This document shows, one piece after another, positions 586 through 12,570 of a stretch of 64,000 bases of DNA. The position numbers were made by a program, and so were the translations under genes. The notes under the pieces were generated by a model. That model made no database searches, was not told the origin of the DNA, and saw nothing but the letters and a program-made list of their open reading frames with translations. The DNA comes from Acidobacteriota bacterium (GTDB lineage: Bacteria > Acidobacteriota > Terriglobia > Acidiferrales > UBA7541): the NCBI GenBank assembly GCA_021324935.1, contig JAJPIE010000044.1, forward strand, positions 124,001 to 188,000. Reading direction: 5' to 3'. Positions within the stretch are counted from its first letter, which is position 1, and the number at the start of each line of letters is the position of its first letter.

Positions 586-3396
586 ATGTTTTGCCCAGCA
601 TGCGGATTCAAAGTTACAGCCACCGCGAAGTTTTGTTCGCGATGCGGAGGCGCGATTGGCGCCGATGCCGATGAGACGGTTTTAGGGAATACCGGCCTTT
701 TTGAGAGCGGAGAAGAGACCCTCGCGCCGGATCATCAGAAGGCCGGGAAGCCCAATACGACGCCGCGCAAGCCAGCGCCTTTCGGGGCGGGAACTCCAGG
801 TGCGCCCAGACTACGAACAACGAGCCAGCCAGCACTGAGCAGCAGCTCCGATCCGATCGGGGGAGGGAGATTTGCGCCGGGTTCGATCATCGCGGAGCGC
901 TACCGGGTCGTGGCGCTGCTGGGCAAGGGCGGCATGGGAGAGGTTTACCGGGCGGAAGACCTGCGATTGAGCCAGGTGCTGGCGATGAAGTTTTTGCCGG
1001 CGGCATTGTCGCAAGATGCCTCGGCACTGGCTAGATTTCATTCCGAAGTGCGGGTGGCGCGGCAAGTGTCGCACCCGAACGTCTGCCGGATGTTTGACAT
1101 TGGAGATACGGAAGGATTGCCGTTCCTGACGATGGAATATGTGGACGGCGAGGATCTTTCTTCGTTGCTACGGCGCATTGGCAGACTGCCGCAGGACAAA
1201 GCGATTGAGATTGCGCGGCAGATTTGCGCGGGGCTTGCGGCGGCGCACGAGCGCGGCGTGGTGCACCGCGACCTGAAGCCTGCAAACATCATGTTGGATG
1301 GGGAAGGAAGGGCACGGATCACGGATTTTGGGCTGGCGGGCATCGCATCCACGATTCAAGGCGCCGAAGTTCGCGCGGGGACGCCCGCCTACATGTCGCC
1401 GGAGCAGCTTTCCGGGAAAGAAGTGACAACAAGGAGCGACATCTATTCGCTCGGGCTGGTGATGTACGAGTTGCTTACGGGGAAGCGTGCATTCGATGCC
1501 GCGAGCTTGCCTGAGTTGATGAAGGCGCGGACGGAGGGGAAGATAACCAACCCTTCGACGCTGGTGCGCGACCTGGATCCGCTGGTGGAGCGGGTGATTC
1601 TGCGCTGCCTGGAGAATGATGCGGCGAAGCGGCCCGCGTCGGCATTGCAAGTGGCCGCAGCGTTGCCCGGGGGAGATCCGCTGGCGGCGGCACTGGCAGC
1701 GGGGGAGACTCCCTCGCCAGAAATGGTGGCGGCCGCGGGAGAAACCGAGGGAACGCGGCCGAGTCTTGCAATGGCATGCCTGATTGGGGCGATGGTGTTG
1801 TTGCTGGCGTGCGCGGTGACGGCTAACCAGGAGAACGGATTGAAGTTCGTTCGAGCGGAAAGTTCCGGCGAAATTCTGGGGCACCAGGCGAGGCAGATCC
1901 TCACCAGTCTGGGCTATTCCTCTGGGGCAAACGATTCGGCGTCGGGTTTCGAGTACGATCAGGACTATCTCGGCTATCTCGACAAAAAAGAAAAGCCAAA
2001 GAAGGAATGGCCAAGGGTGCTCGCGGAACGTCCTTCGGTCGTGGATTTCTGGTACCGACAGAGCTCAAAGGAGATGGTGCCCTATGAATTCTCGAGTCTT
2101 ACCATGACACCCGGAGTCGTGACGATGGATGATCCACCGGAGACCTTTTCCGGGATGGTTAACCTGAAACTCGATCCGCAAGGGAACCTGGTTTACTTTC
2201 AAGCCATTCCTCCACAAAGGGAGGATGCGATATCGGTCGCACAGCCCGTAGACTGGCAACCGCTTTTTGCCGCGGCGGGATTGAATCCCGCCGACTTTCG
2301 GCAAACTACGCCCATTTGGAATTCACTGGCGGCTTCCGATATGCGGGCGGCTTGGGAGGGAACCTGGCCCAGAACAAAGCGGGGGTTGCACGTGGAGGCG
2401 GCGGCGTGGCGCGGGAAACCGGTATTCTTTCAATTGAGCGGAGATTGGACGCTGCCGAAAAGGATGCCACGGGCTTCCGTGAGCGGGTCGGAGAAAGCCA
2501 GCCAGATATTTGGAATGAGTTTCGCGACACTGCTGGTGGGGGGAGGGATCTGGCTAGCGTATCGGAATTTTTCAAGAGGGAAGGGAGACCGGAAAGGAGC
2601 TTGGAAGCTGGCGCGAGCGGTATTCGCGCTGGAGTTAGTATTGTTTTTCGCCCGGGGGCAGCTATCGTTCAGGGTGGAAACGCTCTACTTGCTGATGATG
2701 GCGGTCAGCACGGGGCTATTTGTCGCGGGGCTTTTGTGGGTGCTTTATATCGCGCTAGAGCCGTACGTGAGAAGTAAATGGCCGCAAACGATCGTTTCGT
2801 GGACGCGGATGCTGAGCGGGAAATGGAAGGACCCTGTGGTGGGACGTGACGTGCTGTTTGGCACGCTGCTGGGATTGGCATGGACGCTGGTCTTTTTTGT
2901 CGGGTATGGGTTCGATATCCGCGCGGGTGAGCAGCCGCTTTTCGGGCAGTCGGAATACCTGGAAGGAATGCGAGCCACGACATCTGTGTGGCTGGGAAAT
3001 ATTGTCGTAGCGCTGCTCGGAGCGTTGATGTTCTTTTTCGTGCTGGTGCTGTTGCGGGTGCTGGTGCGAAACCGGTGGCTGGCTGCAATTCTGTTTGTGG
3101 CGCTTTTCGCGATTCCGAAGGTGCTTGCCAGTTCACATCCGCTGATTGATGGGCCAGTGTGGATTCTGATCTATGGCATTTCGGCATTTGCGATCGTGAG
3201 ATTTGGATTGATAGTACTGGCCGCAGCATCATTCACGGCAAATGTGCTGCTGAATGTGCCGTTCACATTCGATTTTTCCTTATGGTATGCGCCAAACATG
3301 CCTTGCGTGATTTTGAGTTTCGCAGCGCTGGCGATCTTCGGGTTTTACACGGCATTGGCGGGACAAAAAGTCATGAAGGATGAATTGTTGGAATAA
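586..3396 (+). CDS. Zinc-ribbon Ser/Thr protein kinase with multi-pass membrane C-terminus
   Basis: The 936-residue protein starts with a zinc ribbon (CPAC and CSRC pairs, residues 3-20), then a Pro/Ser-rich linker, then a Hanks-type kinase domain from about 104 to 370. Visible kinase motifs are GKGGMGEV (113-120), the ATP-anchoring Lys135, HRD at 227-229, DFG at 247-249 and SPE at 271-273, so it should be catalytically active. A first membrane helix lies near 391-411. The middle part (about 412-640) is probably outside the membrane. The last 290 residues hold about eight hydrophobic helices, which is not the usual architecture of one helix plus a sensor. The role is probably membrane-linked signalling. 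The membrane half has no function I can recognise. Confidence 0.9.
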   Translation: MFCPACGFKVTATAKFCSRCGGAIGADADETVLGNTGLFESGEETLAPDHQKAGKPNTTPRKPAPFGAGTPGAPRLRTTSQPALSSSSDPIGGGRFAPGSIIAERYRVVALLGKGGMGEVYRAEDLRLSQVLAMKFLPAALSQDASALARFHSEVRVARQVSHPNVCRMFDIGDTEGLPFLTMEYVDGEDLSSLLRRIGRLPQDKAIEIARQICAGLAAAHERGVVHRDLKPANIMLDGEGRARITDFGLAGIASTIQGAEVRAGTPAYMSPEQLSGKEVTTRSDIYSLGLVMYELLTGKRAFDAASLPELMKARTEGKITNPSTLVRDLDPLVERVILRCLENDAAKRPASALQVAAALPGGDPLAAALAAGETPSPEMVAAAGETEGTRPSLAMACLIGAMVLLLACAVTANQENGLKFVRAESSGEILGHQARQILTSLGYSSGANDSASGFEYDQDYLGYLDKKEKPKKEWPRVLAERPSVVDFWYRQSSKEMVPYEFSSLTMTPGVVTMDDPPETFSGMVNLKLDPQGNLVYFQAIPPQREDAISVAQPVDWQPLFAAAGLNPADFRQTTPIWNSLAASDMRAAWEGTWPRTKRGLHVEAAAWRGKPVFFQLSGDWTLPKRMPRASVSGSEKASQIFGMSFATLLVGGGIWLAYRNFSRGKGDRKGAWKLARAVFALELVLFFARGQLSFRVETLYLLMMAVSTGLFVAGLLWVLYIALEPYVRSKWPQTIVSWTRMLSGKWKDPVVGRDVLFGTLLGLAWTLVFFVGYGFDIRAGEQPLFGQSEYLEGMRATTSVWLGNIVVALLGALMFFFVLVLLRVLVRNRWLAAILFVALFAIPKVLASSHPLIDGPVWILIYGISAFAIVRFGLIVLAAASFTANVLLNVPFTFDFSLWYAPNMPCVILSFAALAIFGFYTALAGQKVMKDELLE

Positions 3397-10029: not shown

Positions 10030-11262
10030 TCAATCTTCCCGGCGGAGGGAACCGCCGAACCGGATCGATGTGAAGCCGAACTTATCGCGCAGGTGATCGG
10101 CGGCTTTGGTGAGTTTCTCGAGTTTTTCGCGGCGACCGGCTTCGAGGAGGTCAAGTTGCTGGCCGCCGTGCGATAACTGGGAAAGAGCGACCCCCAGGAG
10201 CCGGACTTTGCGTTTGGGGTCACGATGCTGGCGAAAGAGATCGAGGAAGACGGCGAAGATTTCCGAGTCGAGTTGGGAAGATTCGGGGAGGGTCTTGGCG
10301 CGGGTATAGGTGTCGAAGCCGGCGTAGCGGATGGTGAGCGTAAGCGTGCGAGCGGAAAGCCCGGCTTCGCGAAGGCGCTTACAGGCCTTTTGAGAAAGAT
10401 GGCTGAGGAGGGATTCCATTTCGGGGACATCGGAGGTGTCCTCGCCGAAGGTGTGGTTGTGCGAGATGGATTTGGGCTCCGCGTCGATGAGAAATTCATA
10501 GGCGTCGCCGCCGCGCGCTTTGCGGTAGAGGGCCGTGCCCCATTGGCCGAAGAGTTTTTCCAATTTCTCCTGTGTGTGAGAGGCGAGTTGTTCGACGGTT
10601 TCGATGCCGAGGGCGCGGAGCGAGCGTTCGGTGACTTCGCCAATACCGGGAATTTTGCGAATGGGAAGCGGAGCCAGGAAACGCGCCTCCATGCCGGGGG
10701 CGACCCAGACGAGGCCGCGAGGCTTGGCCTGATCGGAAGCGACTTTTGCGGTGAGCCGCGTGGTGGCGAGGCCGGCAGAGCAGGGGAGGCCCGTCTGCTG
10801 TGTGATGGTGCGGAGGAGTTTATCGGCAGCGGCGAATGGATGACCGTGGAGTCGTTCGGTGCCAGAGAGGTCGAGATACGCCTCGTCGATGGAGACCATT
10901 TCGACAATGGGAGAAAATTTGGCGAGAATGGAGGCAACGCGGTCGCTCCATTCAGAATATTTTTGGTGGTGACCGTCGAGGAATATCGCGTGAGGGCAGA
11001 GACGCCCGGCCGTGCGGAGGGGCATTGCGGAGTGGATGCCGTACTTGCGGGCTTCATAGCTGGCAGCGGAGACGACGCCGCGCTGGTCGGGGCGGCCGCC
11101 AACGACTACGGGTTTGCCGCGAAGATCGGGGCGCCCGAGGAGTTCGACGGAGACGAAGAAGGCGTCCATGTCGACATGCAGGATGAAAGAGCGAGTGGGC
11201 GTTTCGGTGGCGTCCGGGGAAGCGGCGTCGTGCTTGGCACGGAAGCGAGCCAGGTCAGGCAT
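10030..11262 (-). CDS. dinB: DNA polymerase IV (Y-family translesion polymerase)
   Basis: The 410-residue protein has the Y-family signature: FILHVDMDAFFVSVE with catalytic Asp, the SIDEAYLD motif with the other acidic residues, then the helix-hairpin-helix thumb (IPGIGEVTERSL) and the little-finger region. It carries out error-prone bypass of DNA lesions. The frame is open for a further 330 bases upstream, but ATG 11262 is the conserved start and avoids overlap with the divergent gene at 11368. No canonical beta-clamp motif is obvious at the C-terminus. Confidence 0.93.
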   Translation of the reverse strand: MPDLARFRAKHDAASPDATETPTRSFILHVDMDAFFVSVELLGRPDLRGKPVVVGGRPDQRGVVSAASYEARKYGIHSAMPLRTAGRLCPHAIFLDGHHQKYSEWSDRVASILAKFSPIVEMVSIDEAYLDLSGTERLHGHPFAAADKLLRTITQQTGLPCSAGLATTRLTAKVASDQAKPRGLVWVAPGMEARFLAPLPIRKIPGIGEVTERSLRALGIETVEQLASHTQEKLEKLFGQWGTALYRKARGGDAYEFLIDAEPKSISHNHTFGEDTSDVPEMESLLSHLSQKACKRLREAGLSARTLTLTIRYAGFDTYTRAKTLPESSQLDSEIFAVFLDLFRQHRDPKRKVRLLGVALSQLSHGGQQLDLLEAGRREKLEKLTKAADHLRDKFGFTSIRFGGSLRRED

Positions 11263-11367
11263 GGAAGTAGGGTACGGCTGGGAAGGCGCGGGAAGCAATG
11301 ACCAGGAAATTGCTCCGTGGGCAAACGCTTTTATGAAATGATTTGGCGGGCCTTGAAGGAAACGGGG

Positions 11368-12570
11368 ATGAGATCCATGAGGGGCTATCGTTACGAAACA
11401 CTGCGGCGAACGACATGCTTCGTCGCCCTTTTTCTGCCCGCGGCGGCGCTGCATTGCGAGACGATACCGCTGAGGAGCGTGGTAACGCCGTCGACTGTGT
11501 TTGAAAAGGACGGCAAACCCGTCACGTTTGCGATTCATGGATTTATCGAGTTTCGTTCGCTGGCGGCGGCGTTTCCGTACATACGGGCGCAAGGCGAGAG
11601 ATGGAAGGGGAAAATCAGCAAGGAGGAAGAAGAGGGATTGGAGACAGCGCTATTGCGGGAGGCGGTGGAAAGCCGGGTCGTTTCGATGGTGGATGAACGA
11701 CCGCTGGAGTCGCTGGTTACGCATACAAGCGGGGAGTTGCGCGAGGCGATTGCGGAGGTGAAAGAACCGGTGCCGGCAGGCTACACCGAGGCCTTTCTGG
11801 CGGTGCAGGAAAAGTGGAAGCATTCCATCAATTGTTGGAGCGCTTCGCCGGTGATTGCGGCGAGAGCGCTTTCGAACTGGTATCCAATTGAAGAGGGAAT
11901 CCCGCTGTATGGCGCCAACTATGATTCGACGGAGCATTTCTGGCAGGCGGTGAAGTATCACCCGGGCGTGACCGTCGGGGAAGTGAAGGAGCTCACAAAG
12001 AAGCTTGAGGCGATGGATTGGAGCGGGTGGCTCCAGCGATTGGACGATGATCCCAGGATTTATCTGCCAAACGCGTACGCAGTGGAATTCTTGCGAGCGA
12101 ATTTGAAGCCAGAAAAGTGGCGATGGTTTGAGGAGGAGTTGAGCGGTCGCGGATTAAAGGATGGAGACCTGGCGCGGCAGGCGCAACAGCGAACGGGTGG
12201 GGCGTTCCGATTTAGCGCTTACGAAGAAAAAGTGTTATGGGGCGATCTGGCAGATACGCTACATCTGATCTACTTGTTTTCAGCCGAAGATGATCCGCTG
12301 CGAAAGCTGATGACGGACCACCATTTCGACGGAATTTACTTGGGCACCAGGAAGATGGGATTTATCAGTGAGGAGTTCCGCTCGCTGATGCTGGAAATCT
12401 GGAAGGTGAAGTATCTGCAGATGCCGAGATTCCGTGAGGTGATTGCGGGAATCCCGAAGGAGATCCGGCTGGAGCATTTTTTAAACGATGGCGACTCGCC
12501 AGATATTCCGATTGCGGTGTATGTGGGGTATTTGAATCGAATTCGGGAGCTGGCGCAGACCGGAGAATAG
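11368..12570 (+). CDS. Exported protein with NADAR (YbiA)-like signature
   Basis: From ATG 11368, which has AAGGAA seven bases upstream, the protein is 400 residues with a signal peptide ending near AALHCE. The core contains LSNWYP (168-173) and STEHFWQAVKYHPG, with Glu189-His190. These resemble the SNF-WP and SEHYFQAQKF motifs of YbiA/NADAR proteins. A C-terminal part (EIWKVKYLQMPRFREVI, then RLEH) resembles the second YbiA block. About 130 residues are inserted between the two blocks. NADAR enzymes remove ADP-ribose from guanine or act on riboflavin-pathway intermediates in the cytoplasm, so an exported member would be unusual. The assignment is by motif reading only. Confidence 0.6.
   Translation: MRSMRGYRYETLRRTTCFVALFLPAAALHCETIPLRSVVTPSTVFEKDGKPVTFAIHGFIEFRSLAAAFPYIRAQGERWKGKISKEEEEGLETALLREAVESRVVSMVDERPLESLVTHTSGELREAIAEVKEPVPAGYTEAFLAVQEKWKHSINCWSASPVIAARALSNWYPIEEGIPLYGANYDSTEHFWQAVKYHPGVTVGEVKELTKKLEAMDWSGWLQRLDDDPRIYLPNAYAVEFLRANLKPEKWRWFEEELSGRGLKDGDLARQAQQRTGGAFRFSAYEEKVLWGDLADTLHLIYLFSAEDDPLRKLMTDHHFDGIYLGTRKMGFISEEFRSLMLEIWKVKYLQMPRFREVIAGIPKEIRLEHFLNDGDSPDIPIAVYVGYLNRIRELAQTGE

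Follow-up and report, generated by a model that had tools for sequence, protein, structure and literature searches.

A probably exported NADAR-like protein of Acidobacteriota with a large insertion and a possible place in nucleoside salvage

The window analysed here, a stretch of 64,000 nucleotides from a soil bacterium of the Acidobacteriota (assembly GCA_021324935.1, contig JAJPIE010000044.1, positions 124,001 to 188,000 of the forward strand), contains on its plus strand, at 11368..12570, a gene for a NADAR-like protein of 400 amino acids followed by a stop codon, the frame being open and its translation as described in an initial annotation made from the sequence. The ATG at 11368 has the sequence AAGGAA upstream at Shine-Dalgarno distance, and alternative in-frame starts lie at 11317 (GTG), 11338, and 11377. 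This reading frame is a real gene and not a chance one, because the family is encoded in 35 genomes (identity to the window copy 46-72%) and because the changes separating the window copy from that of genome G020 fall mostly at third positions, with 97, 64, and 168 mismatches at codon positions 1, 2, and 3, respectively. In reaching the figure of 35, five of the seven loci found first (L003, L004, L006, L007, and L008) were contigs met again and were counted once, a fragment from G751 was dropped, and one retained member (L114) is cut off by a contig end. Family members of stated lineage all belong to the Acidobacteriota, a statement that excludes four distant genomes (G980, G1033, G1060, and G1086).

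Comparison of the window protein with Pfam, NCBIfam, and PADLOC returned no family from any of the three. Its two matches among PDB sequences (E 0.38 and 1.2) were judged unrelated, the A1 family profile gave only chance matches against the same sequences, and isolated Pfam matches among nine scanned members, namely FAM101 (two members, best 0.0084), DUF5124, and FhuF, were likewise attributed to chance. Among viral contigs, 54 stretches fitted a pattern and none of them held a relative.

Within the class, the gene was found in 28 of 300 genomes of one family (one of these being a fragment) and in two of 89 genomes of the family to which the window belongs. In a tree of the members, the window copy and that of G020 pair up, with modest support, beside sequences from the other family; the window's lineage may have gained the gene horizontally. 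The window gene itself sits in a housekeeping setting between genes for a DinB-type polymerase and a PrmC-type methyltransferase, with a gap of 105 bases upstream if the chosen polymerase start at 11262 is taken, and the DinB-type neighbour is common to G020 and the window.

The first 31 residues (11368..11460, plus strand) resemble a signal peptide, consisting of a basic start and a hydrophobic core, CFVALFLPAAAL, with likely cleavage near HC-ETIPL. A simple test of hydropathy and charge found such a basic-then-hydrophobic N-terminus abutting the conserved start of the mature protein in 33 of the 35 members, the two failures (L111 and L112) having longer spacers in which extra residues precede the anchor. 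The N-terminus resembles the signal peptide proposed in the initial annotation, and the protein is probably exported.

The likeness to NADAR proteins lies in the C-terminal half. A first motif block at residues 153-198 (11824..11961, plus strand) reads SINCWSAS...LSNWYP...YDSTEHFWQAVKYH and aligned with the NADAR profile in hhalign with Prob 89.7-91.4 and a score of 47-49. LSNWYP occupies residues 168-173 and STEHFWQAVKY, with Glu189-His190, residues 187-197, both as initially annotated, and INCWSAS ahead of the motif resembles, on direct reading, INFYSTS of YbiA. The NADAR profile was built from YbiA and 18 NADAR sequences in the fetched loci, one of which (L023) had come in via the family profile. 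Over the span LSNWYP...EHFWQAVKYH, the family scored 48.6 against this profile, compared with a maximum of 25.0 in 60 column shuffles, and the profile of all 35 members scored 47.7, compared with a maximum of 21.9 in 100 column shuffles; most of this score comes from some 35 columns. A null computed in global mode against NADAR was unstable (maximum 128) and was set aside. In the opposite direction, the family profile matched a genuine NADAR domain in G524 (E 1.7e-4, 399 genomes of the class), and it matched no NADAR domain in 396 genomes of the phylum. True NADARs match the NADAR family phrog_1017 at about 1e-40; of the 35 members, 31 matched it weakly (best 0.013). A second family that true NADARs match as well, phrog_652, was matched by 20 of 35 (best 0.006), and twelve further PHROGs were matched by one to five members each.

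Downstream of the motif lies an insert region at residues 199-335 (11962..12372, plus strand), which a structure model of the family (model 2, below) renders as mainly helical and in which W291-G292-D293 and D296 are invariant. It is followed by a second block at residues 336-397 (12373..12558, plus strand) comprising a helix, LMLEIWKVKYLQMPRFREVI, then RLEHFLNDGDSPD, and a final helix, YVGYLNRIREL. The two blocks stand about 138 residues apart here, against about 40 in YbiA, so that the large insertion described initially stands, but at roughly 100 extra residues instead of the 130 first estimated. The YbiA-like character assigned to the second block held in part. Against the NADAR profile alone, the second collinear piece (the C-terminal helix and RLEHFLND) scored 16-17, within the range of the shuffles, whereas the C-terminal half aligned with phage gp30.3 proteins in two collinear blocks (28.4 + 23.7) extending nearly to the end of the protein, and neither the first-block score nor the sum was reached in any of 150 shuffles. 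The gp30.3 proteins were themselves linked to NADARs by profile comparison in this analysis (Prob 97), and the gp30.3 family PF08010 was not among the Pfam matches of nine members. The curated NADAR family PF08719, against which the initial annotation had proposed to check the protein, was absent from the Pfam families matched by the window protein and by nine members, and had no match in the window's genome, while a control matched in three of 14 genomes. As curated, the family is therefore not a member of PF08719 and is a distant relative only; homology to the NADAR superfamily at the level of profiles is reasonably supported by these sequence comparisons.

The neighbourhoods of the relatives bear on what such a protein might do. 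In 12 of the 35 genomes, a gene for an inosine-uridine nucleoside hydrolase (PF01156) lies within 10 kb, seven of these hydrolases being confirmed by Pfam and the rest recognised with a profile made from the seven. About 0.8 of 35 genomes would be expected by chance (about 2.2% of genes lying so near), giving a binomial probability of 7e-12, or 7e-8 at 5%, figures that serve as a guide only, the background being an estimate from seven genomes with three to nine hydrolase hits each rather than a shuffle of gene positions, and the shared ancestry of related genomes being ignored. Linked cases come from both main clades of the tree and show several orientations, and many of the neighbouring hydrolases begin, by reading, with Sec-like or Tat-like sequences (TRRQFV, TRRRFV), others appearing cytoplasmic. 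The stretches read from the other 23 genomes, including the window's, held no nucleoside hydrolase, several of these contigs being short. Relatives also have genes nearby for a PfkB kinase, a ureide-type permease, and an outer-membrane beta-barrel; those of the distant clade add an adenine deaminase whose start is Tat-like, a purine permease, a ribose-type ABC transporter, and LacI regulators. Counting any nucleoside marker but leaving out the barrel and the regulators, 14 of the 35 genomes carry one nearby, and 21, with the window's among them, have none in the stretch read, several contigs again being short.

Several individual loci deserve mention. Three loci of distant relatives (L116 1902-5943, L119 1238-9956, and L121 190-9408) appear to hold a complete purine salvage locus with a Tat-like adenine deaminase, a purine or ureide permease, a LacI regulator, an outer-membrane barrel, and nucleoside hydrolases. 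In G608 (L104 6673-13872 and L105 3947-12512), eight of the nine nucleoside hydrolase hits cluster in a region of about 26 kb that surrounds the NADAR-like gene, an unusual density for hydrolases of this family. Six genomes of one genus (L082, L085, L088, L090, L091, and L092) share conserved neighbours that include a chromate transporter (PF02417), with no nucleoside genes among them.

These observations are best explained by an exported, strongly diverged NADAR relative whose part in nucleoside scavenging would be to split, or perhaps just to bind, some ribosyl compound. In its fuller form, to which we give about an even chance, the protein would be an exported N-glycosidase of the NADAR superfamily serving extracytoplasmic nucleoside salvage, its glycosidase activity and its class of substrate both being putative. 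In the cases described, NADARs cleave N-ribosyl bonds (PMC11543638, PMC9503650). Once its signal peptide is cleaved off, the mature protein would reside in the periplasm or outside the cell. Its first domain (29-155) may be a degenerate NADAR fold, and its second (about 154-397) would be of NADAR type, broken up by some 100 residues of helical insert. The enzyme would split the bond between a ribosyl group and a base or an amine in nucleosides or nucleotide-derived molecules, and would act alongside exported nucleoside hydrolases, with the ribose and base then being taken up.

A more specific version of this proposal, which we consider possible although it falls short of an even chance, is a tandem arrangement in which a degenerate first fold (with His57 perhaps in the place of Glu189) precedes a catalytic second one bearing the insert, the whole feeding nucleoside scavenging. 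The roughly 125 residues ahead of the motif block do form a separate conserved domain (residues 29-155, 11452..11832, plus strand), in which H57 is conserved in 34 of 35 members and E101, R103, S106, M107, E110, H119, and T120 in all 35. A first structure model, built from 11 sequences, reached a pLDDT of 71.8 with low quality in the C-terminal half, and was replaced by model 2, built from 35 mature sequences (pLDDT 84.8, pTM 0.85). The initial annotation had also proposed a comparison of structures. Neither model drew a Foldseek match at E <= 0.001, and a NADAR headed the VIA-align list for each of them. With model 1, the top match was E. coli YbiA (2b3w; Z 6.8, rmsd 3.4, 106 residues, range 29-155; next match 3.5) and, with model 2, the P. 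nicotianae NADAR (8bau; Z 6.8, rmsd 4.2, 111 residues, mature residues 4-127; next match 3.3). Both matches cover the N-terminal domain, and their Z of 6.8 lies below 8, the level that VIA-align regards as safe. By sequence, the N-terminal domain did not match the NADAR profile, nor did it match the C-terminal profile in a comparison for internal duplication (score 15.8); its score of 20.4 against gp30.3 was reached in two of 150 shuffles, and its score in global mode in seven of 100. The idea of a tandem NADAR accordingly depends on the structure models, sequence giving little support for the first domain, and the presence of a NADAR-type fold in residues 29-155, hence of two such folds in one chain, is suggestive and not proven. 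The best match in BFVD is to a protein of 158 residues from Acinetobacter phage Henu6 (prob 0.92, TMt 0.61, 257 alignment columns), a phage whose gp30.3 orthologue has exactly this length and may be the same protein. An alignment of 257 columns would fit the C-terminal half with its insert.

Residues of the putative active site bear on the next two alternatives. E189 and K196 (11932..11955, plus strand) are invariant in 35 of 35 members, keep the seven-residue spacing seen in NADARs, and are the equivalents of E88 and K95 in the C7 NADAR and of E43 and K50 in the P. nicotianae NADAR, the latter pair contacting the distal ribose and the pyrophosphate (PMC11543638). The same paper describes an acidic residue on the last strand, E125 in the P. 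nicotianae NADAR, whose equivalent is needed in the C7 NADAR; across NADARs, the charged residue at this place is Glu, Asp or, in phages, His. Position 369, which falls opposite it in a stretch of weak alignment, is E in 21, S in seven, D in four, and A in two of 34 members. Close by, all 34 members share H370, D374, and D376, the range being 32 to 34 of 34 when N373 is included, and D374 falls where the phosphate-contacting D130 would align. Two of the three features of a NADAR active site are thus present in the family sequences, and the third, the last-strand acid, is doubtful.

Invariance of the residues equivalent to the ribose and phosphate contacts, together with D374 in the place of D130, would also suit an exported enzyme acting on compounds of the ADP-ribose type, such as fragments of NAD or the ADP-ribosylated guanine of environmental nucleic acids, or one reversing ADP-ribosylation in the envelope; known NADARs bind ADP-ribose and free it from guanine (PMC11543638). 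The recurrent neighbours, however, handle nucleosides and bases rather than NAD or ADP-ribose. An ADP-ribosyltransferase gene neither adjoins the window gene nor occurs among the selected neighbours annotated in relatives, which are part of all neighbours, and we regard this alternative as unlikely. Slightly less likely again is an exported nucleoside binder that has a NADAR-type pocket and no catalytic activity, perhaps acting as a sensor or as a partner to the exported nucleoside hydrolases. Such a protein would account for the unconserved last-strand acid in a family whose link to a hydrolase neighbourhood is nevertheless strong, but all 35 members keep E189, K196, and a large number of polar residues across both domains unchanged, a degree of conservation not expected of a degraded pocket.

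It might further be asked whether the family belongs with NADARs at all, or is a separate exported family in which the segment LSNWYP...STEHFWQAVK arose by convergence. The absence of any Pfam match, the concentration of most of the profile score in about 35 columns, and the non-significant Foldseek E-values would all be in keeping with convergence, which is improbable in our judgement given the two collinear gp30.3 blocks, the independent match of the family profile to a true NADAR, and the place of NADAR structures at the top of the VIA-align lists for both models. Sequence profiles and, more weakly, structure support the initial reading of the product as exported, related to NADARs, and carrying a large insertion. 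The initial annotation had also supposed that export would imply either a different substrate or a part in defence or competition. A substrate different from the cytoplasmic ones is a reasonable expectation for an exported NADAR relative, and salvage is more likely than defence because the gene adjoins nucleoside-splitting enzymes in many related genomes. A role as a defence or competition factor, in favour of which one could cite the antitoxin function of NADARs against DarT1 and YarT elsewhere among bacteria (PMC11125620, PMC11543638) and the patchy distribution noted above in the window's own family, is very improbable, as there is no PADLOC match, no toxin or mobile-element neighbour was identified, the family was not found in the phage and plasmid collections, and the window gene lies among housekeeping genes, the recurrent neighbours in relatives being genes of nucleoside salvage and catabolism.

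Set beside the NADAR/YbiA proteins (PF08719; E. coli YbiA and the P. nicotianae NADAR), the family keeps the order of the C-terminal blocks, LSN[FW], and the EH..Q..K spacing, but differs in its signal-like N-terminus, its roughly twofold length, its extra conserved N-terminal domain, its insert of about 100 residues, its position below the Pfam cut-off, and the want of a conserved last-strand acid. With phage gp30.3 (PF08010; T4 gene 30.3), it shares two collinear blocks, the motif and the C-terminal part, and the protein ranked first in BFVD comes from a T4-like phage and has the size of gp30.3, whereas gp30.3 itself is short, consists of one domain, and lacks both signal peptide and insert. 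The inosine-uridine nucleoside hydrolases (PF01156) are probably engaged in the same process, the hydrolysis of N-ribosyl bonds, partly outside the cytoplasm, and are neighbours rather than homologues, their sequences being unrelated to this family.

The roles known for NADARs are damage control in riboflavin metabolism and the reversal of guanine ADP-ribosylation. Three true NADAR domains met in the fetched loci stand in other contexts. In G318 (L013, a 356-codon frame from 880, plus strand), a protein resembling GTP cyclohydrolase II is, by reading, fused to a NADAR domain, a fusion that appears in line with the riboflavin role; in G124, a second domain matching phrog_464 is fused to the NADAR domain (L014, a 288-codon frame from 1384, plus strand); and in G524 (L023, a 641-amino-acid frame at 1177-3102, minus strand), a C-terminal NADAR domain follows, by reading, a stretch resembling a phosphoribosyltransferase, the frame standing opposite a gene that resembles a DNA-transfer ATPase. 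The authors of PMC11543638 and PMC11125620 describe the physiological roles and targets of NADARs outside DarT operons as unclear. A literature search, in which subscription journals were mostly absent, returned no description of an exported or two-domain NADAR. If the present account holds, an exported NADAR that clusters with exported nucleoside hydrolases would point to a nutritional role for the fold, would supply a concrete class of substrates to test together with a new NADAR architecture, and would give a name to a protein that goes wholly unrecognised by current family libraries. If the tandem reading is also true, the protein would be an extracytoplasmic two-domain NADAR whose function is catabolic rather than one of damage control or an antitoxin.
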